Below are positions 3,039 through 17,990 of a DNA stretch of 20,682 nucleotides, one piece after another. Origin of the DNA: Spirochaetaceae bacterium (GTDB taxonomy: Bacteria > Spirochaetota > Spirochaetia > Treponematales > Breznakiellaceae); assembly GCA_031255315.1 (NCBI GenBank), contig JAIRSS010000260.1, forward strand, positions 1 to 20,682, given 5' to 3'. A program made the translations under genes and the position numbers. The notes below the pieces were generated by a model. It was not told the origin of the DNA. It saw only the letters and a program-made list of their open reading frames with translations, and did not search any database. Every line of letters starts with the position of its first letter. The stretch's first letter is position 1.

Positions 3039-3821
3039 TTACTTTAAAACGGGAACGCAACTGAGGACTCCGGTTTCGTCCCGCCGGACACGGACCTGGA
3101 TGCCGTAGAGGAGGGAGATGAGGCCGGCGGTCAGGACCTCCGCCGGGGGGCCTGAGGCGGCTATCCGGGCGTTGTGCAGGGCCAGCACCCGGTCGGTGAA
3201 CATGAAGGCGTGATCCGGATTGTGGGTGCTGAGAATGACGCTGTAGCCCTGGACGCTGAGATTTTTGATGTGGGAGAGAACCCTGATCTGGTTGCCGTAA
3301 TCCAGGTTGGCCGTGGGCTCGTCCATCACCAGAAGTTTCGCCTCCTGAACCAGGGCCCGCGCAATGAGGACGAGCTGCTGTTCTCCCCCCGACAGGAGCC
3401 CGAATCCCCGGAAACGCAGATCCCCAATGCCCAGCCGGTCCATAGCCGTTTCCGCCGCCTGCTGTTCGCGGGGCCCCGGTACGGACCACTCTTTTCCGCG
3501 GGAGACGGTTCCCATAAGCACCATGTCCAGGGCTGAATAGTTGAAAGACGGGAGGTGGGTTTGCGGCACATACGCCGCCTTCCGGGCCAGCAGCTCAAAC
3601 TGCTGCTTTTTAACGTCCTTCCCGTCTATGTGGATTGATCCGGCGTAATCTCTTTCCAGGCCCAGGATACACCGGAACAGGGTGCTTTTCCCGGCCCCGT
3701 TCGGCCCCAGGAGCCCCAGAAGCGTTCCTTCCCCCAACTCGAAACCGATATTTTCCAGTATGGGGCGATCCCCATAGGCGAAATTAAGCCCCCGAACCGT
3801 CAGTATGGGCGGACTTACCAT
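3039..3821 (-). CDS. ABC importer ATP-binding protein, FecE/BtuD/HmuV type
   Basis: Cytoplasmic ATPase of a type II (FecBCD/BtuCDF-class) importer. The 260 residues contain Walker A GPNGAGKST (39-47), Q-loop Gln87, signature LSGGEQQ (143-149), Walker B LLVMDEPT (163-170, catalytic Glu168), D-loop NLDYG, and H-loop His200 in LSTHNPDHAF. All catalytic elements are intact. Its start overlaps the permease stop by 7 bases, so translation is probably coupled, and it is the last gene of the seven-gene minus-strand block. ATPases of this class do not reveal the cargo: iron-siderophore, heme, cobalamin or another metal chelate are all possible. Confidence 0.92.
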   Translation of the reverse strand: MVSPPILTVRGLNFAYGDRPILENIGFELGEGTLLGLLGPNGAGKSTLFRCILGLERDYAGSIHIDGKDVKKQQFELLARKAAYVPQTHLPSFNYSALDMVLMGTVSRGKEWSVPGPREQQAAETAMDRLGIGDLRFRGFGLLSGGEQQLVLIARALVQEAKLLVMDEPTANLDYGNQIRVLSHIKNLSVQGYSVILSTHNPDHAFMFTDRVLALHNARIAASGPPAEVLTAGLISLLYGIQVRVRRDETGVLSCVPVLK

Positions 3822-4828
3822 AGATCCCCCTTCCGGGTAATGAGCCAGAGGAAGAACGGCGCTCCTACCAGGGACGTGAGGATCCCCAGGGGAATCTCGG
3901 TGGCGAAGAGATTCCGGGACACATTGTCTATGACAAGCAGAAAAAACGCGCCGAATACCATAGACGCGGGCATGAGCCGGCGGTAGTCGTTGCCGGCTAT
4001 GCGCCGGGTAAGATGGGGGATAACGAGCCCGGCCCAGCCTATGATGCCGCTCACGGACACCGCCGCCGCGGTAAGCAGGGTGGAACTGATGATGACCACG
4101 GCCCTGGTCCGCCTGACGTTGACCCCCATGGACTGGGCTTCGTCATCGCTGAGGGTAAGCAGGTTGATGCGCCACCGCAGGACGATGAGGGGCGTTATGC
4201 CCAGCACCATGGGGATCAGCACAAAAAAAACATCGGCAGCCCTGGTTTTCGCCAGGGAACCCATAAGCCAGAAGACAATTTCCGGCAGTACGTTGTTGGG
4301 GTCCGCAGTAAGCTTCATAAAGGAAACCGCGGCGCTGTTCAAAGATGAAATCATCATTCCCGCAAGGATGAGGCCCAGGATTTTTTTCCCCCGCACCCGG
4401 TCCCCGATGAACATCACCAGGACTATGGTCAGGAAGCTGGAGGAAAAGGCGAAGATGGTGATTAGCGGGGCGGGGAGCCTGAGAAGTATGGCCAGAGCCG
4501 CGCCGGTAGCCGCGCCGCTTGAAGCCCCCAGAATGTCCGGCGCCGCCAGGGGGTTTCGGAACACCCCCTGATAGGAAGCGCCCGCCGCCGCCAGGGCGGT
4601 ACCCACCAGGCAGGCCAGGGCTATGCGGGGAAGCCGCACATTAAAAAAGACGGCTTCCATTTGGGCGGACGCAAAGGGTACGTTGAAAAGCCGGGCAACC
4701 AGGGCTGTAAGGGGGATGGGATACCGGCCTAAGGAAAGGGAAACCAGGACAGCCGCCCCCAGGAGCAGAAGCATACCTGCGATGACGCCGGGGAATCTGC
4801 GGGAGCTCCACTTGGGCGGGGCGGCCAT
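3815..4828 (-). CDS. FecCD-family ABC transporter permease
   Basis: Integral inner-membrane subunit of the importer, expected to work as a homodimer with the ATPase at 3039-3821. The protein is 337 residues, normal for the family, with about ten hydrophobic segments. Family hallmarks visible are RLPRIALACLVGTALAAAG, YQGVFRNPLAAPDILGASSGAATGAA, the coupling-helix region GWAGLVIPHLTRRIAGNDYRR, and IDNVSRNLFATEIPLGILTSLVGAPFFLWLI near the C terminus. The start ATG 4828-4826 shares one base with the stop of the binding-protein gene (TAATG), a typical translational-coupling overlap. Substrate cannot be told from this subunit. Confidence 0.93.
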   Translation of the reverse strand: MAAPPKWSSRRFPGVIAGMLLLLGAAVLVSLSLGRYPIPLTALVARLFNVPFASAQMEAVFFNVRLPRIALACLVGTALAAAGASYQGVFRNPLAAPDILGASSGAATGAALAILLRLPAPLITIFAFSSSFLTIVLVMFIGDRVRGKKILGLILAGMMISSLNSAAVSFMKLTADPNNVLPEIVFWLMGSLAKTRAADVFFVLIPMVLGITPLIVLRWRINLLTLSDDEAQSMGVNVRRTRAVVIISSTLLTAAAVSVSGIIGWAGLVIPHLTRRIAGNDYRRLMPASMVFGAFFLLVIDNVSRNLFATEIPLGILTSLVGAPFFLWLITRKGDLW

Positions 4829-5973
4829 TATACGTCTCCGCGTCCCGGACCGCCTGCGTGAAGGCTGCGGGCGGTGAGGCGGTCATACCGTTCCCGTGAA
4901 AGGGTGTACCCATAGAAGAGGCGGTAGTATTCGGCAACTTCGGCGTACAGATTATAGGATGCGTATTCGGGGTAGAGAATTTTTCCCAGCCAGAGCATAC
5001 CCAGATACCGGTTGATGGAAGGAGGGGTCCCCATCCAGTTGTGCGGTCCTGAGGGTACTTCGTAGTACGCGCCGTTGCGTATGGCCCTAAGCTGCCGCCA
5101 CGCGGGGTCTGAACCGGCGGAGGCATAGATGCTGCCGGTTCCGAAGATAATCACCTCCGGGTCCCACAGAAGTATTTGTTCCAGGTTCGTTTCATTTCCG
5201 CTGCCCCTTCCCGCTGGATTATCAACTACCGCCTTGTTGTCGGTCAGCTTATCCAGGACCTCGGAGTGGAAAGAAGTTTTCGGCAGGACGTTAAGGCCCG
5301 CGTTCCCCAGACAGTAGAGCACCTCCCGTTTGTTGTTTCCCGCCCGCGCCTCAACCGCATCCGCCGCGGCCAGGGTTTTTTCGCAGAAGACCACCAGTGC
5401 TTCCCCGTGAGCCTCCCTGCCCAGGAGTTTTCCCAGGGTACGGAAAGCGTCCGGCGTTGACGCGAGCGTAGCGGTGATGTGGATGGCCGGGACCGCCACG
5501 GACGCGGAGATCTGGTCCATATCCGCGGCGATGGAGTCCTTGGGTTCTCCAATGTCAATGATGACATCCGGGTTTATCACGGCCAATTCCTCGGGATTCA
5601 GGTTTTGCGCGCCGTAGAATTGACCCACAACCGGAAGACCCTGTAGGTAGGCCGGAACGAATTCCGCCTCCCCGCCGCTGTACGGGGCCGACACCGCGCA
5701 CAGCAGATCCGGCGCCGCGGCCAGAAGGAACATCTGGGCAAGGCTTCCCGACGGGGCGATCCGGGTGATCTTCGCCGGCAGTTCAACCGTCCTGCCGCTT
5801 GAATCGGTAAACAAGACTGTTTCCGCCTGAGCAGGCTGGGCGGCCCTGGGGCTCCCCCTGTCCCGCTGGGCCGCGCCCCAGGAAAACCCGGGGAGCAGCA
5901 ACAGCAGCGCCGCGAGCAGCAAGCCGGACGCGCTTTTTTTCAGAAGAGAACCGGAATTTCGATGTACGTTCAT
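4828..5973 (-). CDS. Periplasmic substrate-binding protein of the iron/corrinoid ABC importer class
   Basis: Captures the cargo in the periplasm and hands it to the FecCD-type permease. A Sec signal peptide (basic MNVHRNSGSLLKKS, then a Leu/Ala core ending near GFSWGA) lacks a lipobox cysteine, so a soluble periplasmic protein is expected. The mature part has the FecB/BtuF pattern: FTDSSGRTVELPAKITRIAPSG, INPDVIIDIG, LLWDPEVIIFGT, and near the C terminus PSGPHNWMGTPPSINRYLG and WLGKILYPE. The start is ATG 5973: GGAGG at 5979-5983 is five bases upstream, while the TTG at 5985 overlaps that site. It is 381 residues long. It lies 51 bases after tonB and overlaps the permease start by 1 base. Binding residues are not assignable by eye. 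Confidence 0.88.
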   Translation of the reverse strand: MNVHRNSGSLLKKSASGLLLAALLLLLPGFSWGAAQRDRGSPRAAQPAQAETVLFTDSSGRTVELPAKITRIAPSGSLAQMFLLAAAPDLLCAVSAPYSGGEAEFVPAYLQGLPVVGQFYGAQNLNPEELAVINPDVIIDIGEPKDSIAADMDQISASVAVPAIHITATLASTPDAFRTLGKLLGREAHGEALVVFCEKTLAAADAVEARAGNNKREVLYCLGNAGLNVLPKTSFHSEVLDKLTDNKAVVDNPAGRGSGNETNLEQILLWDPEVIIFGTGSIYASAGSDPAWRQLRAIRNGAYYEVPSGPHNWMGTPPSINRYLGMLWLGKILYPEYASYNLYAEVAEYYRLFYGYTLSRERYDRLTARSLHAGGPGRGDV

Positions 5974-6024
5974 ACTATCCTCCAAAAGGTATTTTATAAA
6001 AACAAACCCCCCGGCGGGATTTGC

Positions 6025-6732
6025 TTATCGCAGCTTAAAAACCACCGGAATAGCCAGACGCGCCGCCGCCTGCGGGGGCGGGAATGGGGCGGCGTCGTGA
6101 ACCGCCGCAAGCGCCGCCAGATCGAGGATCTCATGGCCGCTGGTGGTCAAAATTGACACGCCGCTGTCCGTTCCATCCCTGTTCATGGTAAAACCCACTT
6201 CGGCGGCGCCCTGGATGCCGGCCCTCCTCGCCGGGGGCGGATACTTCAGCCGGTCCCGGATACGGCGCTGAATATAGGTAACGTTCCGACTGACATACGC
6301 GCCGGTCAGCGCCGCAGACTCCGGGTTTCCGGCGGAACCGGGAGGCCTCGCGGTAATGCCGGCGGTTTCCACCGGGCCGGAGGGGGGGGCCGGCGGTCCC
6401 GCCGATGAAGGCGGCTCCACTGCGTCCGGGGGAATTTCTTCCAGGAGAATGTAGGTTTCCGCCTGAAGATCCTCCGCCTGCTGTTCCGGCTCCGCCGCGT
6501 TAGGGACGGGCGGCGCAACCTGCGGTACAACTGCCGGTGCAACCGCCGGCGCCGGGACCGGTTCGGCCGGCGGAAGCTGGATGCTGATCAGGGAAAAAAT
6601 ATCCGGCTCCGCCGCCTGAGGAAGCGGGCCGTCCGGCCTACGGTACATGGCGGCATCCAGGCGCATAAAAAAGACCATCCCCGCATGGAGAAAAACCGAA
6701 ACGCCAAAGGCGGCCGGCAGGAGCCTGCTCAT
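6025..6732 (-). CDS. tonB: TonB-family energy transducer
   Basis: TonB spans the periplasm and passes proton-motive energy from ExbB/ExbD to outer-membrane receptors. The 235 residues show the expected three parts: an N-terminal membrane anchor (LLPAAFGVSVFLHAGMVFF, with Ser and His in the helix), a Pro/Ala/Glu-rich middle (about residues 35-145) and a C-terminal TonB domain (YIQRRIRDRLKYPPPARRAG, AAEVGFTMNRDGT, ending IPVVFKLR) with the YP motif. It begins 12 bases after the receptor stop, so it is likely a dedicated TonB for that receptor. ExbB and ExbD are not in this window and must be encoded elsewhere. Confidence 0.85.
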   Translation of the reverse strand: MSRLLPAAFGVSVFLHAGMVFFMRLDAAMYRRPDGPLPQAAEPDIFSLISIQLPPAEPVPAPAVAPAVVPQVAPPVPNAAEPEQQAEDLQAETYILLEEIPPDAVEPPSSAGPPAPPSGPVETAGITARPPGSAGNPESAALTGAYVSRNVTYIQRRIRDRLKYPPPARRAGIQGAAEVGFTMNRDGTDSGVSILTTSGHEILDLAALAAVHDAAPFPPPQAAARLAIPVVFKLR

Positions 6733-6744
6733 CCCCCCAGGCCC

Positions 6745-8829
6745 TCACCGGTACTTCACGGTTACGGCGGCGGTAAAACTCCGTCCCGCCAGGGGCGCGT
6801 ATTGCTGTATCTCGTAATAGGCGTCAAAAATGTTTTCAACGCCGGCGGAGACGGAAAGGTATTTGCCTATATCGGCGGTTACCCGGAGATGGGCAAGGAA
6901 ATACCCGTCCAGCGTTGTTTTGCCGTCCGTATCGGCGTACCGGGAGCTTATGTACTCAAGCCGGGGAATTATCGAAACCATGGTCAGGACTTTTAGCGCC
7001 GCGTAGCCGTTCAGGGTAAAATGGGGATAATACGTAAGCGTCTTTACGCTGTTCTGACTGCGGTTAAGATGATAGCGGTTGAGGGAAAACGCGGCGCCCG
7101 CGGTGAACCATTCGGCAACGCTCAGTTCCGGGCTCACTTCGATCCCCCAAAAACTGGTCGTATCCAGGTTGCGGGCGTAATTGACCAGCGCGCTGGGATG
7201 GTGGGGATTCCCTAGTTCGACTTGTATGATTTTACCGGAGATAAGGCTGTAGTACAGCGCTGAATTGACAACCAGCGAAATACGTCCGGCGACCCCCGGA
7301 GTCAGGCTGAGACGGTACCCAAGCTCAAAATGATTGGCGATCTCCGGCCCCAGGTTGGGATTGGGCAGGGTTGTACCGAACCGGGTTGAATAGCGCTGGG
7401 ACATCGTGGGGAAGTGGTTTTTCCTGGCGTAGGTTATATGAAGGTCGTGGCCGAAAGCCGGCGTATAGAACAGGCCGGCCTGCCAGGTATACAGGAACAT
7501 ATTCCGGGTTTTGACGATGAAGTAATCCGCTTCCAGGAGCCTGAGGTATTCATTTTCCCCGTTCCAGTATTCAAGGGGGATCAGAGCGTCAAACCCTGCC
7601 CCGGCCCTTACGGTAAGCGGCGTCCAGGGGTTCATGGAATACTCAGCGCCCGCGGACCAGGTGTCTTCGGCGACGCGCATTTCTTCGGTAAGATCCCCGT
7701 CGTTGTGTATGCTTCCCCGCAGGCCGGTGTGGTCCTCCTTCTTATAGGTCAGGGCAAATTGGGCGGTATTCCATGCGTTGATTTCCCAGCTTCCTTTCAG
7801 CCGCCCGCCCAAAGAATATTCATCATAATCCGAATGGGGGGCGTGTACGCCCAGTTCGTAGGCCCTCATCGTGTAGTATTCATCAAGGCGGTTATCGTAT
7901 TTATCAAAATAGAACAGCCCTTCTGTTGACACCGCGCCAGTAGTCCAGGTTCCGTTCAAAGCAACGCTCCACCGCTTCCATACCGGCCAGTCCCAAATCT
8001 GGTAGTTTCGTATCGTGATGTTGGGAGGGGATACGCCTTTATCCGCGTTTTGATACACAAAGGCAAGCCATGCGTCAAGGTCCGAAACCGGGGTAAGGCC
8101 CGCGATAAGGGTGAGCTTGAAATCTTTTGAATCCGACCAGAGCCGGTCCCCCGCTTTCTGGGGATTCCCTTCCGTTTCCTCAAAACCCGCGGGCAGGCGG
8201 AAGTGATCGACGTCCCGGTACTGAACCGCCGCCCTGGCGTAGCCGTACCGGAGTTTGGATCCCGCGCTGAGTACGTGGGTGGAACCGGCGTACCGGCCTG
8301 TGCCGTCCAGGGTCAGGCCGGTTTTCAGGGACGCCTCAAGAGGGGTCTGGGGTTTCGCGGTTCTCAGCAGGATTGCCCCGCCTAAGGTGTTGGCCCCCAG
8401 GAGTTCCGAACTGTAGCCCTTTTCAATCTCAATACTCTCCAAATCCCCTGAAAGAATCCGCGCGCTGTCCGCTTCGCCCCGGTAGGGGTTTGCCAGGGGA
8501 ACGCCGTCTACATAAACCGGAATACTGTCCGCGCCGAACCCCCGGACCGTAAAGTTCGAATCGTTGCGCCGTCCGCCTCCCGACAGGATCACCCCCGGAA
8601 CATACCGTACCGCCTCCCACAGATCCTCCGCGCCGTCCCGTTCCATTTCTTCCCCGGTGATGAGTTCCGGGGTGTCCCGCTCGCCGATTACCTCCGCTTC
8701 CGGCAGGCGGTATACCTCCTCCGCACCGGCGGGCGCGGCGTCAGCCTCCTCCTCCTGCGCGCCGGAGGCCGGGGGCAGCCAGGCGCACAGGAAGCAGAGC
8801 AACGCGAAAAGACGGCCGGCCTTTTTCAT
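6745..8829 (-). CDS. TonB-dependent outer-membrane receptor
   Basis: Outer-membrane beta-barrel with an N-terminal plug that takes up a scarce ligand at the expense of TonB-delivered energy. The 694 residues start with a Sec signal (MKKAGRLFALLCFLCAWLPPASGA), then an acidic linker, then the plug: LPEAEVIGERD (possible TonB-box region), EDLWEAVRYVPGVIL, NFTVRGFGADSIPVYVDGVP, LESIEIEKGYSSELLGANTL and GGAILLRTA. The rest alternates aromatic beta strands and loops, with the receptor-like AGVENIFDAYYEIQQYAPLAGRS near the end. The C terminus is VKYR rather than the common terminal Phe. Its ATG overlaps the stop of the preceding lipoprotein gene by four bases (ATGA). The size fits BtuB/CirA-like receptors, but the ligand cannot be assigned. 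Confidence 0.92.
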   Translation of the reverse strand: MKKAGRLFALLCFLCAWLPPASGAQEEEADAAPAGAEEVYRLPEAEVIGERDTPELITGEEMERDGAEDLWEAVRYVPGVILSGGGRRNDSNFTVRGFGADSIPVYVDGVPLANPYRGEADSARILSGDLESIEIEKGYSSELLGANTLGGAILLRTAKPQTPLEASLKTGLTLDGTGRYAGSTHVLSAGSKLRYGYARAAVQYRDVDHFRLPAGFEETEGNPQKAGDRLWSDSKDFKLTLIAGLTPVSDLDAWLAFVYQNADKGVSPPNITIRNYQIWDWPVWKRWSVALNGTWTTGAVSTEGLFYFDKYDNRLDEYYTMRAYELGVHAPHSDYDEYSLGGRLKGSWEINAWNTAQFALTYKKEDHTGLRGSIHNDGDLTEEMRVAEDTWSAGAEYSMNPWTPLTVRAGAGFDALIPLEYWNGENEYLRLLEADYFIVKTRNMFLYTWQAGLFYTPAFGHDLHITYARKNHFPTMSQRYSTRFGTTLPNPNLGPEIANHFELGYRLSLTPGVAGRISLVVNSALYYSLISGKIIQVELGNPHHPSALVNYARNLDTTSFWGIEVSPELSVAEWFTAGAAFSLNRYHLNRSQNSVKTLTYYPHFTLNGYAALKVLTMVSIIPRLEYISSRYADTDGKTTLDGYFLAHLRVTADIGKYLSVSAGVENIFDAYYEIQQYAPLAGRSFTAAVTVKYR

Positions 8830-10709
8830 GGCTTCTTAAGCCCGCCGGGAGTCCAGGGAGCGGACGCGGGGAGCGGAACGCCGCCTTCAATCGAGACGCG
8901 CCCGTCCAGACGGGGAGCAACCACGCCCTGATCGTAGATATATTCCGCCACACCGTGCCAAAAGGGAATATCGAAGGGTTCGATGCCGGTTCTGCTGGTG
9001 AATAACCGGGTGAAGTATCCCCCGGCGGCAAGATAATCGGTGGTGCAAATCCGGTATTCCCGGTTGTCGTCAATAGGGCCGCCCCCAATAAGGAGGGTTC
9101 CCGGTTTGATAAACCCGTGGTAGTAGGGCTCCGCGTCCCGTGAGGATATTTCCTCGTATGAACCGTTGGGATCATAGGTTCCGTCGGGCTTTGTTCCGGG
9201 GGGCTGGTAATACTGGATAGTGTACCGGGCGTCAGCGGACACTATCCCGAAGAACCCGGTATTATGCGGCCCGCCCCGGGCGGTATGCACGACTCCGGCG
9301 ACATCCCCTTCTCCGTCCACCCTGCCCTCGACATCCTGGAAGAACAATTTGAGCATATCCCCTTTCATGGTGATGATTACGATTTTGTCGCTCCGGGCGT
9401 CCGGCTGGGTTATGGCCGAAATCCCGCCGACCGTGATTGTTCCCCGTGAAAGGGCGTTGTCTATATAGCCGCCGTTGAGGAACACAAAATCAATCGGCTT
9501 TTTAAGGATGTTCCTGACATACCACGCCGCGCCGTCGGTAAACAAATTCCCCAGGGCGGTTTCCTGCACCCGGGTCAGCCGGTCGGTATTGGGCCTTCCG
9601 TCAGGGAAAAACACGCTTTTCGGCAGGTCCTGGGCAAAGATATATTCGGCGGCGGCGGATCCCAGTTCAAACCGGGGATTGGTGAAATCTACCGGGTCAC
9701 GGGCGACGGGCTTCCCGGACGCGGCGGGGGATACCGGCGAGTTCTGCCGGGCGCTTTGAGAGTTCCATGATTGAACCCATACATAGTACAGTACACCGTT
9801 GGACAGCCCGGTAATATCGGCGCTTACCCTCGGCGCGGCCGCCGGAACAGACCCGAACTCCTGGGCCTGAGAAAAATCATTCGCCGTTCCATAGTAGACT
9901 TTGTAGCCCGGTACGCCGGAAACCTGATCCCATTCCGCCGTCAGCTTGTTGTTCCCCGGCGTAAGCGCAAGTTCCGCCGGGGCCGCGGCGGGCGGCGCGG
10001 AGGCGTTCCGCGGGGTTCCTGAGGCGGAGGCGTAGCCGGGAGAATTCCCCGCCGTATTGGCCGCCCGGACCCAGATCGTGTAGGACGTTCCATTACTCAA
10101 CCCAAGCAGGGCCGCGCCGGTTTCGGATACGGTTTTGATGGACGCGTCCTGAGGCGGCGTTCCGTTCGATCCGTTTTCCCGGTAGTACACTTCATAGGTG
10201 AAGGCGTCCGGCGTTGGGTCCCAGGTTACCTCAAGCATCTCCTCCCCGGAGGCGACGGCCAGGCCGGTGGGGATTGCCGGAGGCGGGATGGGCGTTCCAT
10301 AGGTGATGGGGCTGAACGCCGATTCCCCAAGATCCGGGTACACCGCTTTTACCCAGACGTACCATGTTACGTGGTTGTCTAGGCCTGTAATCTCGTACCG
10401 AACCAGGTTAGATGTGTTTGATTCCACCCTCCCGCGTTTTATCGCGCTTCCCTCAGCAGGGGAAAGGCTGGAATAAATCTCGTAGAAGGGAATTACCCCC
10501 TGGGCGGGGGCTGTTTTGGTCCATTGCAGCATCAGGGATTGGTTCCCCGCCGTTACCTGGATGGAGCGCGGCCCAGCCAGAGGGATGGAGCTGTCAGGAT
10601 CGGGGCCGGCCTCGCAGGAGGCCGCCAGCAGGCCGGCAAGCGCCAGCAACGCCGCCGCCGCGTATCGTTTGAGCCTTCCGGCAATTCTTTCACTCGTTAC
10701 GTTCCGCAT
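8826..10709 (-). CDS. Lipoprotein: three fibronectin type III domains plus lone 5'-nucleotidase C-terminal domain
   Basis: Exported protein of 627 residues. The signal sequence ends in the loose lipobox AASC (Cys32), so it is probably a lipoprotein. Three fibronectin III modules follow at roughly residues 42-140, 144-237 and 243-338, each with the WxxT/D...YEVYY...ITGLSNGTxYxxWVxA pattern. Residues about 343-620 resemble the 5'-nucleotidase C-terminal (substrate-recognition) domain: RVQETALGNLFTDGAAWY, DFVFLNGGYIDNALSRGTIT, IITMKGDMLKLFF, NREYRICTTDYLAAGG. The metallophosphatase domain that normally precedes it, with its DxH and GNHE motifs, is absent, so catalysis is unlikely. The domain recurs in the neighbouring lipoprotein. 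Four-base overlap with the receptor gene ties the two in expression. Its own ribosome site is weak. The ligand is unknown. Confidence 0.82.
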   Translation of the reverse strand: MRNVTSERIAGRLKRYAAAALLALAGLLAASCEAGPDPDSSIPLAGPRSIQVTAGNQSLMLQWTKTAPAQGVIPFYEIYSSLSPAEGSAIKRGRVESNTSNLVRYEITGLDNHVTWYVWVKAVYPDLGESAFSPITYGTPIPPPAIPTGLAVASGEEMLEVTWDPTPDAFTYEVYYRENGSNGTPPQDASIKTVSETGAALLGLSNGTSYTIWVRAANTAGNSPGYASASGTPRNASAPPAAAPAELALTPGNNKLTAEWDQVSGVPGYKVYYGTANDFSQAQEFGSVPAAAPRVSADITGLSNGVLYYVWVQSWNSQSARQNSPVSPAASGKPVARDPVDFTNPRFELGSAAAEYIFAQDLPKSVFFPDGRPNTDRLTRVQETALGNLFTDGAAWYVRNILKKPIDFVFLNGGYIDNALSRGTITVGGISAITQPDARSDKIVIITMKGDMLKLFFQDVEGRVDGEGDVAGVVHTARGGPHNTGFFGIVSADARYTIQYYQPPGTKPDGTYDPNGSYEEISSRDAEPYYHGFIKPGTLLIGGGPIDDNREYRICTTDYLAAGGYFTRLFTSRTGIEPFDIPFWHGVAEYIYDQGVVAPRLDGRVSIEGGVPLPASAPWTPGGLKKP

Positions 10710-10741
10710 GATTTATTCCCAGCCTTTCTGTTTATTAGGGG

Positions 10742-11590
10742 TTAGGGAGTAGCGGGAATCACCGGTACTACGCCCGCGGCCTTAATACGGCCTTCTACAA
10801 CCGGCTCAATCGTACCTTTGGCTGCGATATATTTGGCTACCGCGGTTTTCAAGTTCTCATCGGCGTATTGAGATTCACGGTCTTTTCCGTAATTGGTAAA
10901 GTTTGATGGGCCGCCGCTTGTTGGCACATCGTTGCTGTTCCCATTCCTGCCGGCCATAAAGTTGCCTACCGCGACCCGGTAGTCTTTTTTCGGATCAAGC
11001 GGACTGCCGTTCAGCCTAATATCGACCGCACGGGGAGGCTTCGAAGCGTCTGTATCAGGTTGAATCGCGTAGCTCACCCCTTTAGATACCAGTACGGCGC
11101 AGTTGGCGTTCCACCGACCTGAAGAACTGCTGTTTACAAATATATTGATAATCTTCTCAATATCACTACCGGTATAGGTTACAATCCAGAGGGTGTCCGT
11201 CAGGCCGGAGCTTAGATTGGTTAGGGTTATCACCCCGGCGGAAATTGTTGTTAGGCCCTGGACATTTTGCCCATTCAGCATAGCAAAATCCACCGGCTTC
11301 CCGGAAACATGCTCCGCGTAGGCCGCAATGCCGTCAACGATCAGGTTACCCAATGCGGTCTCCCCGTACCGGATACCCGTTGCGTCAATGTCCCGAGCCG
11401 CAGTGCCCAAGGTAACGGTGGAATCCGTAACGTCCACATCAACGATTTTGCTCCAGTCCAGTCCGGGATAATGGTTCGGAACACCCGGCTCATCATCATC
11501 ATCATTGCCCGTGTTACATCCCAGGACGAACAACGCCGCCAGGAAAACCGCCATAACCAAACAAAACCTGCTTCTCTTCTCAATCATCAT
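10742..11590 (-). CDS. Lipoprotein consisting of a lone 5'-nucleotidase C-terminal-like domain
   Basis: First gene of the minus-strand block, 282 residues. ATG 11590 is chosen because AGGAGG (11596-11601) sits five bases upstream; the frame continues 13 codons further without a site. The signal peptide ends in a classic lipobox VLGC (Cys25), followed by an acidic tether NTGNDDDDEPG encoded by a (CAT)5 run on the + strand (11491-11505). The mature part matches the 5'-nucleotidase C-terminal domain: RYGETALGNLIVDGIAAY, DFAMLNGQNVQG, GVITLTNL, IVTYTGSDIEKII, LDPKKDYRVAVGNFMAG. No metallophosphatase domain precedes it. The GETALGNL/QETALGNL blocks show it is a tandem paralogue of the next gene, minus the fibronectin modules. 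The role is unknown; a ligand-binding rather than enzymatic function is inferred. Confidence 0.82.
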   Translation of the reverse strand: MMIEKRSRFCLVMAVFLAALFVLGCNTGNDDDDEPGVPNHYPGLDWSKIVDVDVTDSTVTLGTAARDIDATGIRYGETALGNLIVDGIAAYAEHVSGKPVDFAMLNGQNVQGLTTISAGVITLTNLSSGLTDTLWIVTYTGSDIEKIINIFVNSSSSGRWNANCAVLVSKGVSYAIQPDTDASKPPRAVDIRLNGSPLDPKKDYRVAVGNFMAGRNGNSNDVPTSGGPSNFTNYGKDRESQYADENLKTAVAKYIAAKGTIEPVVEGRIKAAGVVPVIPATP

Positions 11591-11620: not shown

Positions 11621-11637
11621 AAAGCTCAACCAGCTTT
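11621..11637. promoter_or_regulatory. Palindrome in the leader just after the predicted transcription start
   Basis: AAAGCT-CAACC-AGCTTT has perfect six-base arms around a five-base centre, at about +5 to +21 of the predicted minus-strand transcript. It could be an operator or a 5' stabilising hairpin in the mRNA. The sequence does not discriminate between these. Confidence 0.45.
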
Positions 11638-11647
11638 ACTGAGTGCT

Positions 11648-11676
11648 AGTATACGCAGTGTTTTCTGGAAAATCAA
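11648..11676 (-). promoter_or_regulatory. Sigma70-type promoter for the seven-gene uptake block
   Basis: Read on the minus strand: -35 TTGATT (11676-11671), a 17-base spacer, and -10 TATACT (11653-11648). Each hexamer has five of six consensus bases and spacing is ideal. Transcription should begin near 11641, leaving a leader of about 50 bases before ATG 11590. That is too short for a cobalamin riboswitch. Confidence 0.75.
11661..11672. promoter_or_regulatory. Dyad in the promoter spacer, possible operator
   Basis: TTTTC-TG-GAAAA is a near-perfect 12-base palindrome lying in the spacer of the promoter and touching its -35 hexamer. A regulator bound here would block RNA polymerase. It does not match a Fur box that I recognise. 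Confidence 0.4.
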
Positions 11677-11807
11677 GAGGAAAACGGTATTTTATTCGGT
11701 TTAGTCTATTTTCACTGGATATTGATTCCCGGCTCGGTATGGCTTCACAGGACAAGAACCTACGAAACCGACTTAAACCGTCCATCCGGTTCGCCAGGCA
11801 TACGGTC

Positions 11808-11892
11808 CGCGGATTAGGCGGATCAACACAGAGTATGAACACGATTGATACGAAAAATCCGCGTTGCTTGGTGATAATCCGCGCAATCCGTG
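11808..11892. repeat. Imperfect long inverted repeat upstream of the A2M gene
   Basis: A 22-base arm at 11808-11829 pairs with 11871-11892 in inverted orientation, 17 of 22 positions matching, around a 41-base loop. The right half also carries AATCCGCG twice (11856-11863, 11876-11883) and AATCCGTGG (11885-11893). It lies in the 358-base non-coding stretch between the divergent genes, which otherwise holds the minus-strand promoter and no clear plus-strand promoter. It may be a dispersed repeat of the genome or a structured leader. Confidence 0.45.
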
Positions 11893-11948
11893 GTTCCCGG
11901 CGTTTATCCCGCCTTGCCGCGTACTTTACTGTGTATTACTCTAAGATT

Positions 11949-14900
11949 ATGAAGATGTTCCCTCCCTGGTTTGGAAGATTTTTGACCCTGTACGCCGCTG
12001 TTTCGCTCTTTGCTTCCGGCGCCTGCAAGTCCCCCGCCGGCGCGTCCGCCCAGCGGACGGTTTTCTCCAGCCCCCTCGCCGCGCCCGGGCGGGCGGTGGA
12101 AGGGCTGGAGGCGTACCGGATCGCCTATTATGAGGCGGACCCGGAGGGCGGCGCGGAAGGGGCCTTTGAAGGAAGCGGCGTTTTTAGCGATGAAAGCGGC
12201 GAGCCCTTTACCCTGGCGGATTACGGGCCCCGGGGGGAACTGCCGTCTGAAACAACGAAACCTTCTATATATATGGTTTTTTCCCATCCGGTACGGCCGG
12301 TGGCCAAACTGGGGGAGTCCGTCCGCTGGGAAGAGGGCGCGCCGGATCCGGGGCTTTTTACGGTGGACCCGCCGCTTCCGGGGGTGTTCCGCTGGTACGG
12401 GACGCGGCTCCTGGCCTTTGAGCCTGACGCGGAGAGCCTGCCGCAGCGCCGGTATACGGTAACGGCGTCGGACCGGCTCAGGTCTCTGGGGGGCAAGCGG
12501 CTTGAGGGGGAGCGGAGCTTCAGCTTTGAGACCGAGCGGCTTTCGGTGCTGTACTGGCAGGTTGGGGATGGGGAATACCCCGCGTCCGCCTGGGACGCGC
12601 CGCCTGAAGCCGCGAAGAACCTCCTCTTTATCTTTTCCTACCCAGTGAACCTTGAGGAAATCAGGCGGTGGATTCGGGTCGATCTGGCGGGCGGGGCTTC
12701 CGGGGGAATACCGTTCCGGGTGTCCCGGCCTGAAACAATAGACGAAACCTGGTACCGCCGGGACCAGGGGGTGCTGATAAGCCTGGAACGGGATCTGCCG
12801 CCTGACACGGATGTGGCGGTTACCGTGCTGCGGGGCGCCCGGTCGGAGGACGGCTTGCTGGGTTCCATGGCGGACGCGGTGTTCACGTTTCACACCCTGC
12901 TCCCCTTCACGCTGGATTATGCCGGGGCCCGTTCCGAATCGTCTCCCCGGACGGAGCAGGGCGACAGCATTCCGGTCATTCTTGATTTCAGCCACCCGGT
13001 TGATCCGGCGGGCGCGGCGGAGCGGTTTTCTATCGAAGGGCTCCCGGCCTTAACGGCGGAGAATATTCATGTCTATGGGAGCCGGGTGATTCTGAACCGG
13101 CTGCCCCTGGAATACGGCAGGGTCTACACCGTAAAAATAGGGGCCGCCCTGAGGGATATTTGGGGCAGGCGGCTGGGGGAGGATCAGACGGCCAGGGTGG
13201 AAACAGGAGAGGCCGGCAGCTATGTGTATATCGGGGACCAGGGGCCCCGGATGCTGGAGGCGGGGTTCATCCCCGGCGTGATTTGGGAAGCCCAGAATCC
13301 CCAGTCCCTGCGCCGGGTCATCCAGGCCGCGGCGGGGCCGTATGAGCGGGCGCCTTCCGACGCGCTGGAGGCGGCGGCGCTGATGAGCGTCCCCCGTGAT
13401 TCAAAGCAGTATTACCAGGAAGATTTATCCCCTTTCCTGGGGCCCGCCGGTACGGGGAGCGTCCGTATGCGCTGGGATTACGAGATCCGTTCCCAGTGGG
13501 ATCCGGGCCGGGTGTACCGGAACCGCCCCTGGCTTACGGTCCAGGTTACCGATATAGGGCTTACCGTCCGGTACGGGTACAACCGGGTTCTGGTCTGGGC
13601 GACCCGGCTTTCCACGGGGGAACCGGCGGCGGGGGCCCGGGTCGTTCTGCTGGAGGGGACCGTCCCGGTAACCGAAGGCGTTACCAGCAGCCAGGGGCTT
13701 GCGGTGTTCAATTTTCCTGACGGGGCCTTTGCGTCCCGGTTTACCCGGCCGACGGAGCGCTATGTGGATGACCAGGAAGCCGCCGGGTCCGCGGTGGGGA
13801 AGGGGCTGCGTATACGGGCAACCCTTGGCAGCGGCCCCGGCGCGGGGGGAGACGAGGTTGAGTTTATCCCCAATGACAGCCACAACCTCTGGCGGTTCTC
13901 CATAGACGCGGCGGTCTCCCCCTTTGAGGCGGAACAGGAACGTTCGGCGGTCTTTCTCTTTACCGACCGGGGGGTCTACCGGCCTGGGGAAACCGTAACC
14001 TTCCGGAGCATAGACCGGATACTCAGCCGGGGGCGCTACCGGGCGTACCAGGGGCCGTACACCATTACGGTACGGAGCGGCGCGTTCCGTGCGCCGGTTG
14101 TCGCGTCTTTTTCGGGAACCGCGGCCAAAAACGGCGGCGGGTACGGGTCATTTACCCTGCCCGGCGATCTTGATCCCGGCAGATACACTATTTTCTACAA
14201 ACGGGGCGGGAAATCATCCACCGAAGCGTCCGCTGTAGCGACCGCTATAGCGGACGCTGAAGCGGCGGTTGAATTTACGGTCGCGAATTTTGAGCGCCTG
14301 CGGATGGAAGCCTCTGTGCGCCTTGGCGAGGAGGCGGCGTTCCTGGGAGACCGGATTTCCGCCCGCCTTTCCGCTTCCTATCTTGCCGGGGGCGTACTGG
14401 CGGGAGCGCCCTATTCCTGGTACTGGACGAGGGAACCCGCGGCCTTTAATCCCGGCGGCTCATGGCGGTACTGGAAGTTTGGGCCGGAACATTCGGACGG
14501 GAGGTCCTTTATCGCCGAGGGCGAAGGAAACCTGGGGCCTGACGGCGCCGCGGGCATAAGCCAGGAACCGCGTCCTGACGGCGTTGAGGGATCTCCCTAC
14601 CGCTACCGGCTGGAAGCCTCAGTCCAGGACGCAGCCCGTCAGTCGGTATCGGTTACGGACGCCCTCATCGTGCATCCCGCGGCGTTCTATATCGCCGCCC
14701 GGCTTGATCCGGGAGCGTTGCGCGCTGTTTCGGAAGCGCGCTCCCCCTCCTCCTCGTTTTTTTCCGCCGGAAGCCCGGCAACCCTGAGCTGGTCCCTCCT
14801 TTCCCCCGCCGGACAGCCGTCCGATGGACGGGGAGCCGAACCCCTCTCCATCCAGTTTGTCCGGTATGACTGGAAGCAGGCGCGCCAGGCCGGAGTCGCG

Positions 14901-17900
14901 GGGCAGGTGAATCTGCTCTGGGAGCAGGTAGAAGAAGTGGTGGAAGAACGGACGGTGAATATTGCCGCTCCGGGAGGGAAAACCAGCGGTACGGTTACGT
15001 TTACCCCGGACAGGGGCGGCGAGTGGGAGGTGCGGCTGCGGAGCCGGGACAGCCGGGGCCGGGCGGCGGTAACCCGGTTCGGGTTTTACGTGAGCGGGGC
15101 GGGATGGGTGCGCTGGGGGTCCGGCGACGCGGACCGTATCATCCTGACGCCGGACCGGGATGTCTACGCTCCAGGCGATACGGCGAAACTTCTGGTTCGT
15201 TCCCCCCTTCCCAAAGGCTCGTACCTCCTTACCCTGGAACGGGAGGGAATCATCTCCGAAAGGATTCTGGAACTGGACGGTTCAGCCCTGACCATCGACA
15301 TTCCCATTACAGAATCCTTTGTTCCCGTCGTGTACGCGGTCGTGTCTTCGTTTACGGTGCGCCGGGGGCCGCCGGAAAACAGCTACTATCTTCCCGATCT
15401 GGACAAACCGAAAGGGCTGTTTGGGATCGCCGCGCTGCCGGTGGATATGGCCGGACGGCATTACGCCGTACAAATCGAAACTTCCCAAGGGGTTTACGCT
15501 CCGGGTGAGGAAGCGGAGGCGCGTATCCGCGTAACGCTGAACGGAAAACCCGCGCCTGATACGGAGGTGAGCTTTATGGCGGTGGACCGGGGGGTGGTGG
15601 ACCTGATCAACTACCATGTGCCTGACCCTCTGGCCTTTTTCTACGATACCCGGCGTTTCCCCCTGGGCGTGCGGGGCGCGGACAGCCGCTCCCTGCTCAT
15701 CGATCCGGTAACGTATTCTGTGGCGGACCTTCAGGGCGGCGATACTGAGGATGTTTCCAAACTTGCCGAGCGCAGGGACTTTAGGCCCACCGCCGTGTTT
15801 GAGCCCTGTCTGATAACCGACCGGAACGGAGTCGCCGTGGTGAAGTTCAGCCTCCCGGATGCGCTTACCACCTACCGCTGTACCGCCGTGGCCGCGGGGC
15901 TTTCCGAGTTCGGGATTGCCGAGGAGGACCTCCGGGTAAGCGCCCCCCTGACCGCCGTCGCCGCCCTTCCCCGGAAGCTGCGCTGGCGGGATACCGGCTC
16001 GGTATCCCTCATCCTTACCAACCTGGAAAAAGAAACCCGGGAAGCCCGCGTCTCCCTTGCCGTCGAACCCGGCGATGTTCCCGGCAGCGCGGGCGCGGCC
16101 GCCGGGGGTTCGTCAGCGGCGCAGACAGCGGCGCAACCAACGGTGCTGGAAGTGGACGGGGAATCCGCAAAAACCGTGCGGATTCCCCCCGGCGCTTCGG
16201 CGGAAGTTTCGTTCAAAGTCGCCGCCGTAGGGGCCGGACAGGCCCGGCTTGTCTTTACTCTGCGTTCTCCTTCGGTAAACGAGCGAATCGTCAGGCCCCT
16301 CTCCGTGGACCGTCCGGCACTGTACGAGACGGTGGCCGCTATCGGGAACCTGGGGCCGGACCGTAGTTTTGTTGAGGAAGGACTTATCCTGCCGTCCCTG
16401 GTTCCTCCGGGGACCGGCAGCCTCGCCGTCAGTCTCTCCGCCTCCCGCCTGGCGATGCTCCGGGAAGCGGTGGGGTATCTTCTGGATTATCCCTACGGAT
16501 GCCTTGAACAGCGTACCGCGGCGCTCCTTCCGCTGGTAAGTTTCGGGGAACACCTGGCGGCCTTTAACCTGGAAAGCCCGGTGGCGGATCCCCGGCGGAC
16601 GGTTGAGGAGGAGCTTGTCCGGATCGCCAAAAACAAACTGCCCGACGGATCATATCCCTACTGGCCCGGCGGACGGTACGGCAACGTTATGGTTACCCTC
16701 CGGGTGGCCCATATCGCGGCGCTGGCCCGCGCAAAGGGCTATGAGGTTCCCGAAAGCCTGGACATTCCCCGGGCGCTTACCTTTATTACCGCTTCCGAAG
16801 AAGCCCGCGGGCTTCTGTCTCAGGACCCGTTCCTTGAAGGGTACGCCCTCTGGATACGGGCCATGCACGGCGAGCAGGTACGGAGCGGGATAACCGCGTT
16901 TCTCACGAAAGGGGACGCCCTGGGTATATGCGGGTTTGCCTTTGCCGGCCTTGCCGCGCTGGAGCTGGGGCGGAAGCCGGAGGCTCTTGCCGCAAGGGAC
17001 CGGATCAGAAACTATATCCGTCCCGGCGCCCGGACTGCGGACCTTGCGGATACCCATGAAAGCCGGGGCGATTTCTGGGGCGGCGATACGGACCGGTACG
17101 CCCTGGCCCTTATGTTGTATCACGCCCTGAATCCCCATGACGACATGACGAGCCGCCTTGCCGGCAGCCTGATAGAACGGCAGCGGCGCGGGATTTGGTC
17201 CAATACCAGCTCTTCCTACTGGGCCGTCCTTGCCTTTGGCCGGGTCGCCGACGCTGAAACCGCGACGGGGACGGATTTGAGCGCCCTCGTCTCCCTGGGA
17301 CCGGCCTCCCTCCTTACCGGGGACTTCTCGTCTTCCGGCGGTGTCCCCCTTTCCCGGACCTTCCCCTTCACGGCCCCGCCTCTGGACGGCCTTGAGCGGG
17401 ACGCCCTGCTTCCCCTGCGTATAGAACGGAAGCGTCCGGGCAACACCGGACCGGGCGCTTCCGGTCCGCTTTTCTACACCCTCAACCTCCGCTATGGCAT
17501 ACCCGCCGAACTTGCCGCCCCCCGGGACGAGGGAATTTCGGTGTTCGCCGAAATCCTGGACTCAGAGGGCAGGCCGGTCAGAGACGGCAGGCTTGTTCCC
17601 GGCGCAACCTATACCCGCCGGGTCGTGGTATCCAGTTCCCGCTCCCGGGGCTTTCTGGTCCTCCGCGCACCGGTCCCGTCCGGGGCGGAGATCATCGACG
17701 CCGTCCTGGTAACCAGTTCCACCGCTCCCCCAACGGAAGCCGGGGAGGAGCCGGACGAAGATGAAGGCCGCAGGTACACGCGGCGCGGCGCCCTTCCGGT
17801 ACGGTTCGTCATGGACGATGAAGTCCGTTTCCATTGGGACTATTTTCCCCCGGGAAAACAGGAAGCGCGGTTCCGTTTCCGGGCGGTAATGCCTGGAATC

Positions 17901-17990
17901 TACCCTACTCCGCCAGTTCAGGCGGAATGTATGTACGAGGAAGAGGTGTTCGGACGTTCCACGGGAGAGTTGATACGGATTGGTGAATAA
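11949..17990 (+). CDS. Bacterial alpha-2-macroglobulin family lipoprotein with thioester
   Basis: Large protease trap of the YfhM type, 2013 residues from ATG 11949. The frame stays open back to 11643, but that part is Arg-rich, crosses repeat sequence and has no signal peptide; at 11949 a signal sequence with lipobox SGAC (Cys26) begins. No strong Shine-Dalgarno is visible (ATG 11955 is an alternative). Ig-like macroglobulin domains follow from about residue 98 (SIYMVFSHPV, LLFIFSYPV, VILDFSHPV). FLFTDRGVYRPGETVTF lies near residue 670. VYAPGD and VYAPGEEAEARIRV lie near 1071 and 1182, and a core A2M motif (FSLPDALTTYRCTAVA) near 1300. Then comes the thioester YGCLEQ (Cys1518, Gln1521) in an alpha-helical domain, and a C-terminal macroglobulin domain ending in EEVFGRSTGELIRI. 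It overlaps pbpC, its usual partner; both likely act at the inner membrane/periplasm. Confidence 0.93.
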   Translation: MKMFPPWFGRFLTLYAAVSLFASGACKSPAGASAQRTVFSSPLAAPGRAVEGLEAYRIAYYEADPEGGAEGAFEGSGVFSDESGEPFTLADYGPRGELPSETTKPSIYMVFSHPVRPVAKLGESVRWEEGAPDPGLFTVDPPLPGVFRWYGTRLLAFEPDAESLPQRRYTVTASDRLRSLGGKRLEGERSFSFETERLSVLYWQVGDGEYPASAWDAPPEAAKNLLFIFSYPVNLEEIRRWIRVDLAGGASGGIPFRVSRPETIDETWYRRDQGVLISLERDLPPDTDVAVTVLRGARSEDGLLGSMADAVFTFHTLLPFTLDYAGARSESSPRTEQGDSIPVILDFSHPVDPAGAAERFSIEGLPALTAENIHVYGSRVILNRLPLEYGRVYTVKIGAALRDIWGRRLGEDQTARVETGEAGSYVYIGDQGPRMLEAGFIPGVIWEAQNPQSLRRVIQAAAGPYERAPSDALEAAALMSVPRDSKQYYQEDLSPFLGPAGTGSVRMRWDYEIRSQWDPGRVYRNRPWLTVQVTDIGLTVRYGYNRVLVWATRLSTGEPAAGARVVLLEGTVPVTEGVTSSQGLAVFNFPDGAFASRFTRPTERYVDDQEAAGSAVGKGLRIRATLGSGPGAGGDEVEFIPNDSHNLWRFSIDAAVSPFEAEQERSAVFLFTDRGVYRPGETVTFRSIDRILSRGRYRAYQGPYTITVRSGAFRAPVVASFSGTAAKNGGGYGSFTLPGDLDPGRYTIFYKRGGKSSTEASAVATAIADAEAAVEFTVANFERLRMEASVRLGEEAAFLGDRISARLSASYLAGGVLAGAPYSWYWTREPAAFNPGGSWRYWKFGPEHSDGRSFIAEGEGNLGPDGAAGISQEPRPDGVEGSPYRYRLEASVQDAARQSVSVTDALIVHPAAFYIAARLDPGALRAVSEARSPSSSFFSAGSPATLSWSLLSPAGQPSDGRGAEPLSIQFVRYDWKQARQAGVAGQVNLLWEQVEEVVEERTVNIAAPGGKTSGTVTFTPDRGGEWEVRLRSRDSRGRAAVTRFGFYVSGAGWVRWGSGDADRIILTPDRDVYAPGDTAKLLVRSPLPKGSYLLTLEREGIISERILELDGSALTIDIPITESFVPVVYAVVSSFTVRRGPPENSYYLPDLDKPKGLFGIAALPVDMAGRHYAVQIETSQGVYAPGEEAEARIRVTLNGKPAPDTEVSFMAVDRGVVDLINYHVPDPLAFFYDTRRFPLGVRGADSRSLLIDPVTYSVADLQGGDTEDVSKLAERRDFRPTAVFEPCLITDRNGVAVVKFSLPDALTTYRCTAVAAGLSEFGIAEEDLRVSAPLTAVAALPRKLRWRDTGSVSLILTNLEKETREARVSLAVEPGDVPGSAGAAAGGSSAAQTAAQPTVLEVDGESAKTVRIPPGASAEVSFKVAAVGAGQARLVFTLRSPSVNERIVRPLSVDRPALYETVAAIGNLGPDRSFVEEGLILPSLVPPGTGSLAVSLSASRLAMLREAVGYLLDYPYGCLEQRTAALLPLVSFGEHLAAFNLESPVADPRRTVEEELVRIAKNKLPDGSYPYWPGGRYGNVMVTLRVAHIAALARAKGYEVPESLDIPRALTFITASEEARGLLSQDPFLEGYALWIRAMHGEQVRSGITAFLTKGDALGICGFAFAGLAALELGRKPEALAARDRIRNYIRPGARTADLADTHESRGDFWGGDTDRYALALMLYHALNPHDDMTSRLAGSLIERQRRGIWSNTSSSYWAVLAFGRVADAETATGTDLSALVSLGPASLLTGDFSSSGGVPLSRTFPFTAPPLDGLERDALLPLRIERKRPGNTGPGASGPLFYTLNLRYGIPAELAAPRDEGISVFAEILDSEGRPVRDGRLVPGATYTRRVVVSSSRSRGFLVLRAPVPSGAEIIDAVLVTSSTAPPTEAGEEPDEDEGRRYTRRGALPVRFVMDDEVRFHWDYFPPGKQEARFRFRAVMPGIYPTPPVQAECMYEEEVFGRSTGELIRIGE
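14225..14258. repeat. Strong hairpin inside the A2M coding sequence
   Basis: AGCGTCCGCT (14225-14234) is perfectly inverted as AGCGGACGCT (14249-14258). The 14-base loop itself contains AGCG-AC-CGCT. It encodes an Ala-rich linker (STEASAVATAIADAEA) between macroglobulin domains, so it may reflect codon repetition rather than function. Confidence 0.4.

Follow-up and report, generated by a model that had tools for sequence, protein, structure and literature searches.

The window analyzed here, a 20,682-nucleotide stretch of contig JAIRSS010000260.1 from a Spirochaetaceae bacterium (assembly GCA_031255315.1), encodes two tandem lipoproteins, denoted NucA and NucB, that carry orphan, probably non-enzymatic versions of the 5'-nucleotidase C-terminal domain and are followed by the gene for a TonB-dependent outer-membrane receptor. 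Judging from the sequences, we consider it fairly probable that the two lipoproteins assist this receptor by capturing its ligand on the reused domain. This reading draws directly on the fold of the domain, the missing catalytic domain, the lipobox, the conserved linkage to the receptor gene and the lost contact residues.

The C-terminal domain matches PF02872 above the curated cut-off of 23.6 bits both in NucA (64.4 bits, E 1.7e-17) and in NucB (55.7 bits, E 8.1e-15), in agreement with a sequence-only reading of the window that had proposed two tandem lipoproteins with this domain. Structure comparison yielded the expected 5'-nucleotidase C-terminal fold for both proteins and not an unrelated one; for NucB, Foldseek alone ranked fibronectin-type arrays first, and VIA-align resolved the C-terminal domain. 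The three fibronectin type III (fn3) modules previously attributed to one of the proteins were recovered by the Pfam scan as three stretches in NucB, with no fn3 match in NucA. The absence of the metallophosphatase domain was also borne out: no metallophosphatase family is among the Pfam matches of NucA or NucB, the GNHD/GNHE and DxH patterns are missing from both in a motif search, and no such domain was found in the 12 window proteins scanned. Both proteins contain a lipobox-type Cys, which is invariant in 25/25 NucB and 13/13 NucA aligned rows.

At the canonical contact positions, the NucA and NucB of the window lack the Arg and the first aromatic residue and retain the second aromatic. To describe the contact columns, whose roles (phosphate Arg, base-stacking aromatics) we assume to be those in UshA and CD73, we aligned 120 NucB proteins from the Treponema search, 72 proteins from the Mucispirillum search (two of these duplicates in the compared part), 19 NucA and 22 complete nucleotidases; the latter define the columns, which depend on the alignment. 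The Arg of NGGxR is kept in 22/22 complete enzymes and in 2/211 relatives (0/120 NucB, 0/72 Mucispirillum-search proteins, 2/19 NucA), and the first stacking Phe in 22/22 and 1/211, respectively (0/120, 1/72, a value qualified below, and 0/19). The Asp of GGD is present in 21/22 enzymes, 5/120 NucB, 0/72 Mucispirillum-search proteins and 2/19 NucA. The second aromatic is kept in 22/22 enzymes, 100/120 NucB and all 19 NucA, and in none of the 72 Mucispirillum-search proteins, 67 of which have Lys or Arg in this column. The Glu of ETALGN is conserved throughout the alignment (233/233), and the second Arg preceding ETALGN in all sequences except 16. NucB also has a His of its own at residue 475 (119/120), where 70/72 Mucispirillum-search proteins have Arg. 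Because the Treponema proteins have lost almost every phosphate Arg, first stacking Phe and GGD Asp, classical nucleotide binding by NucA and NucB appears unlikely, and the domain can be read as a scaffold put to new use, its site now a different one.

Linkage to the receptor was counted by calling open reading frames in the loci and scoring them with profiles built for this analysis, the window itself being left out. The count began with 54 NucB-type entries without metallophosphatase motifs, from which six at a contig edge (<400 bp downstream), two that carry a metallophosphatase part (L120, L156) and two that look like broken or shortened nucleotidases (L076, L088) were removed; one gene in two pieces (L020) was counted once. 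Among the 43 informative genes left, the receptor gene is next in 33 and comes after one more orphan-domain gene in 5 (38/43), compared with 0/21 for proteins with metallophosphatase motifs, for which the next two genes within flanks of ~1.5 kb were considered and whose set omits some complete nucleotidases (L120, L156, L032, L155). The five exceptions are the second copy at L022, with the receptor directly upstream; the first copy at L110, in a gene run with a receptor at its end; L015, where the next frame resembles a second NucB and the contig ends; and L041 and L152, close to a contig end downstream and upstream, respectively. A chance neighborhood of NucB and the receptor was set aside on this count: the orphan-domain gene is linked non-randomly to a TonB receptor across two phyla, Spirochaetota and Deferribacterota. 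Of the earlier proposal that these are binding or presenting lipoproteins for the ligand of the receptor, the probably non-enzymatic domain and the receptor link stand, and the suggested nucleotide-like moiety is not supported, given the lost contact residues.

The NucB proteins come from Treponema metagenome-assembled genomes (MAGs), Leadbettera azotonutricia and T. primitia, from Seleniivibrio and other Deferribacteraceae, and from a Mucispirillum-type set. Among the named relatives of NucB are those of L. azotonutricia (68% identical) and T. primitia (53%) and those of Treponema and Spirochaetaceae MAGs; the Treponema-type carriers are presumably termite-gut bacteria. The receptors are 62-70% identical to that of the window in most Treponema loci, 54-58% in four, and 50-55% at the Seleniivibrio/Deferribacteraceae loci, and in the Mucispirillum-like group, the receptor is ~37% and the NucB protein only 25-30% identical to those of the window. 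With identities this low across the groups, the pairing has therefore outlasted deep divergence. In a survey of Deferribacterota, 12 of 50 genomes had a NucB match at E 1e-20, one of these (G037) to the fn3 part only. In the class of the Treponema MAG G006, 26 of the 394 genomes sampled had some NucB match and 3 had a full-length NucB, with at most three candidates scored per genome, so that absence there carries little weight. No relatives were found in viral contigs. The plasmid matches to NucA are distant (26-28%, four Azospirillum records), the one such region viewed carrying no annotation, and no such lipoprotein is annotated beside the plasmid receptors, which are 27-28% identical, in the two regions viewed.

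NucB appears to be the constant partner of the receptor, with a second lipoprotein that varies: in Treponema, NucA or a BNR/kelch-like protein and, in other groups, perhaps another copy of NucB or none. NucA precedes NucB in the window and at the Treponema loci L002, L005, L006, L011, L012 and L023, and a BNR/kelch-like protein takes this place at L003, L004, L007, L008, L013, L014, L098 and L099, and occurs also at L010, cut by the contig, and L009, ~1.1 kb away. The propeller-like matches of these proteins (DUF6242, BNR, Kelch) are weak, the members at L009 and L098 have no Pfam match, and their lipobox was judged by eye. A second NucB-type gene precedes NucB at some Mucispirillum-like loci, and no second lipoprotein was seen before NucB at the Seleniivibrio loci L017, L018 and L025. 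The description of the two lipoproteins as the first two genes of the block thus holds for the window and not for all its relatives. An expanded form of the cassette is found in G001 (L110:3523-7218, contig C120), where three orphan-domain genes, the first two separated by one other gene, lead to a receptor 46% identical to that of the window. At L022:7716-13517, lipoproteins with fn3 and the orphan domain are encoded on both sides of one receptor.

In the window, seven genes form a compact operon in the order NucA, NucB, receptor, TonB, binding protein, permease and ATPase (Table 1), with neighboring genes overlapping or at most ~40 bp apart. As the sequence-only reading had noted, the second lipoprotein gene overlaps the receptor gene by four bases, the stop of NucB lying at 8826 and the receptor start at 8829. 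NucA runs from the ATG at 11590, preceded by AGGAGG at ~11600, to the stop at 10742; a TTG at 11629, which merely gives the longest frame, was rejected as the start in favor of this ATG. The candidate promoter is no evidence by itself, given five such sites in the window vs 3.3 in shuffles, and a scan for short inverted repeats upstream of NucA yielded nothing useful. Divergent from the operon, at 11643-20346, are a bacterial alpha-2-macroglobulin gene and then a gene for a transglycosylase/transpeptidase (penicillin-binding protein 1C-like), two genes that usually occur together.

Table 1 Features of the NucA-NucB operon in the window
Feature	Position	Strand	Match or basis
NucA: lipoprotein, signal peptide and orphan 5'-nucleotidase C-terminal domain, 282 aa	10742..11590	-	PF02872
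NucB: lipoprotein, three fn3 domains and orphan 5'-nucleotidase C-terminal domain, 627 aa	8826..10709	-	PF02872
TonB-dependent outer-membrane receptor, conserved partner gene	6745..8829	-	PF07715 and PF00593
TonB-like energy transducer	6025..6732	-	PF03544, E 7.9e-14; TIGR01352 above cut-off
Periplasmic binding protein, Peripla_BP_2 class	4828..5985	-	PF01497; best PDB relative 4pag, then 4ovk, 4hn9
FecCD-type ATP-binding cassette (ABC) permease	3815..4828	-	PF01032, E 8.6e-85
ABC ATPase	3039..3821	-	PF00005, E 7.4e-33
Possible sigma-70-type operon promoter, TTGATT-17-TATACT	11648..11676	-	Consensus scan, 9/12 matches

For NucA and NucB, we infer a surface location, binding to the receptor and ligand capture. 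The two lipoproteins are probably anchored on the cell surface beside the receptor, where the orphan domain would capture the ligand, or cap the receptor, and then release the ligand to it. Inward movement would then depend on TonB and on the operon's binding-protein-dependent ABC transporter.

The receptor does not name this ligand because it falls below the cut-offs of all 21 NCBIfam families that it matched and its PDB matches are mixed (heme, siderophore, pseudopaline-metal and transferrin receptors). The permease likewise is below the cut-offs of all 16 NCBIfam families matched and the ATPase below those of the best 25 of 188. The profiles for vitamin B12 uptake were not reached (TonB-B12, 75.7 of 599.7 bits; BtuC, 236 of 461; BtuD, 119.2 of 281). 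In both phyla, the binding proteins match the same PDB entries best (4pag, 4ovk and 4hn9), with HI_1472, which we take to be a molybdate/tungstate binder, fourth or fifth and iron, heme and B12 binders after it.

The leading guess for the ligand, offered tentatively and as a lead only, is a rare-metal chelate, such as one of molybdenum or tungsten; the alternatives are iron chelates, heme or another small molecule. DUF364 ('heavy-metal chelation') is represented by 16 genes in 13 of the 22 carrier genomes, and 7 of the 16 are at most 10 kb away from the locus (G004, G005, G049, G052, G058, G307, G410), in at least three arrangements, vs ~0.19 expected under random placement, with kinship uncorrected and loci per genome counted by hand. 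An eighth DUF364 gene, on a short contig of G056, has a tail-to-tail overlap of four bases with a receptor gene, and L004, outside the 22-genome set, has both DUF364 and CobW-like genes. Other neighbors of the cassette at different loci are FmdE, NTPase_1, a CobW-like GTPase and a methyltransferase, and a regulator resembling the last part of a molybdopterin-biosynthesis model is encoded near CobW-like and methyltransferase genes. On plasmids, a DUF364 gene lies ~7 kb from nifH, and a binding protein at 26% identity adjoins a molybdate binding protein. The available text of the DUF364 structure paper gives gene neighbors for iron, tungstate, vanadium and molybdate (PMC2954201). A more specific version, in which the domain, devoid of its catalytic part, would be a receptor-capping capture protein in a TonB system dedicated to molybdenum or tungsten chelates, and in which intracellular handling of the chelate would fall to DUF364 and FmdE-type proteins, is rather unlikely. 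A cluster of DUF364, CobW/HypB-like GTPase and further genes recurs at L007:3670-8651, L098:2695-7538 and L157:7923-10980; at L007, it also includes a methyltransferase, an ABC-type ATPase, an SBP_bac_6 protein (no obvious signal peptide, by eye) and a regulator with HTH_17 and PBP_like domains.

Several observations weigh against, or qualify, the case for the capture role of NucA and NucB and for the ligand suggested for them. The counts lack independence because the carrier genomes are akin to one another and many are fragmentary. An aromatic residue is found no more than two columns from the first stacking position in 71/72 Mucispirillum-search proteins (3/120 NucB, 1/19 NucA), so that the loss of the first Phe is firm only in the Treponema set and uncertain in the Mucispirillum-search one. 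The binding protein, permease and ATPase exceed no ligand-specific cut-off among the matches listed, the closest PDB binding protein, 4pag, carries no ligand name, and the nearest ABC genes of the Seleniivibrio loci adjoin a second receptor. DUF364 does not occur in the window (20 kb); both the window and the Seleniivibrio loci lack all of the DUF364, FmdE, CobW-like and NTPase_1 genes seen at several related loci, and 9 of the 22 carrier genomes, including three Seleniivibrio-like ones, yielded no DUF364 match. Two other plasmid regions give no definite direction: one with a DUF364/DUF2478 gene has no annotated molybdenum gene, with cobD and cbiB ~9-10 kb off, and in the other, likewise without a molybdenum gene, a relative of the binding protein is annotated with iron and siderophore transport.

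The domain might instead retain nucleotide-like recognition, such that the lipoproteins would bind a corrinoid or another cofactor via its nucleotide part and deliver it to the receptor. The best NCBIfam matches of the permease (BtuC, 236 bits, cut-off 461) and of the ATPase (a corrinoid ATPase, 189 bits, cut-off 537), both sub-threshold, point this way, as do the second stacking aromatic kept in NucA and most NucB, a corrinoid-activation (RACo) gene ~7 kb upstream in L098 and a CobU gene ~2 kb past the tonB gene in L021. However, the Treponema proteins have lost the NGGxR Arg, the first stacking Phe and the GGD Asp, and the distribution of cobalamin riboswitches suggests a separate B12 route. 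No such riboswitch scores above the gathering threshold in the window or in the 11 loci scanned out of 31. Riboswitch matches occur in 21 of the 22 carrier genomes (20 above the cut-off), but none of these genomes has one on the locus-bearing contig except G307 and G410, near-complete assemblies in which the first contig spans almost the entire genome; there the nearest is >600 kb away. At 7 of the 30 riboswitch loci (G005, G009, G048, G052, G057, G058, G410), with L142 left out as a match below the cut-off that overlaps a receptor frame, a different TonB receptor gene follows, either directly or after one intervening gene; B12 uptake therefore seems to use other receptors, and a corrinoid ligand, one of the candidates initially raised, is disfavored. 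Altogether, recognition through a nucleotide part is improbable. At three riboswitch loci (L141, L132, L137), a gene for a protein of ~180-250 aa, that of L141 without a Pfam match, stands between the riboswitch and a TonB receptor gene and is possibly a B12-linked partner gene in Treponema. A separate row of genes in a Treponema MAG (L029:3766-15442) consists of an fn3/FGE-sulfatase-type gene, a TonB receptor, a ChlI-like AAA ATPase, a FecCD permease and ATPase, a radical SAM protein, a binding protein and a CobN-like chelatase, and looks like a heme- or corrin-handling operon.

Two further explanations dispense with ligand capture. The orphan domains could form a split enzyme with a metallophosphatase acting in trans, a 5'-nucleotidase or other phosphohydrolase at the receptor, and complete 5'-nucleotidases are indeed encoded elsewhere in several of the same genomes; yet no metallophosphatase domain was detected in the 12 scanned proteins of the window, the substrate-contact residues are lost, and the conserved neighbor is a receptor, which together make this option highly improbable. 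A chiefly structural or adhesive role for NucB at the surface, on an fn3 stalk and with its place before the receptor reflecting co-regulation only, is unlikely too, if less so: fn3 arrays are common spacers in surface proteins, and G410 contains other fn3-rich frames, but the linkage to one receptor family is immediate in two phyla and is maintained through duplications, and NucA as well as some of the Mucispirillum-type proteins have the domain without an fn3 match. A non-enzymatic role of NucA and NucB as partners of the receptor is the likely one.

Lipoproteins encoded beside a TonB-dependent receptor are a feature that NucA and NucB share with the BtuBG and XusAB systems. Unlike BtuG, which is a beta-propeller, NucA and NucB have the 5'-nucleotidase C-terminal fold, and no B12 riboswitch was found at their locus. 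In contrast to XusB-XusA, TonB and a FecCD-type ABC transporter are encoded in their operon as well; XusB is not among the structure matches listed for NucA and NucB, the folds themselves not having been compared. In Bacteroides, BtuG is the ligand-binding surface lid on the TonB-dependent transporter BtuB for vitamin B12 (PMC10404256), and XusB recognizes a xenosiderophore metal chelate and passes it to the TonB-dependent transporter XusA (PMC13142918). The 5'-nucleotidases proper (UshA, CD73, T. thermophilus 2z1a) differ from NucA and NucB, which have no metallophosphatase domain, have mostly lost the base and phosphate contacts, and are lipoproteins encoded beside a receptor. DUF364/DUF4213 genes adjoin the nucleotidase-domain cassette in several lineages, whereas the available text of PMC2954201 names ABC transporters and metal genes as their neighbors, not TonB receptors or nucleotidase-domain lipoproteins. 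The open-licence literature yielded no description of the NucA-NucB combination, as the sequence-only reading had anticipated, and nothing on FmdE with TonB or on DUF4213.

The principle of lipoprotein-assisted TonB uptake is already known; what would count as new to a specialist is that the pairing is conserved and the domain reused. The cassette would act in the manner of BtuG and XusB, with a different fold, in different phyla and accompanied by a transport operon; what was once an enzyme domain now seems to serve a nutrient receptor as a non-enzymatic partner. This would extend lipoprotein-assisted TonB uptake from Bacteroides to Spirochaetota and Deferribacterota, on an unrelated, enzyme-derived scaffold. 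Proteins named '5'-nucleotidase' in the sources thereby become candidates for a transport function, and DUF364, a family without an assigned function, gains a recurrent transport neighbor. If the proposal of a system for molybdenum and tungsten chelates is true, these genes would represent an unrecognized outer-membrane route for the two metals in gut anaerobes.

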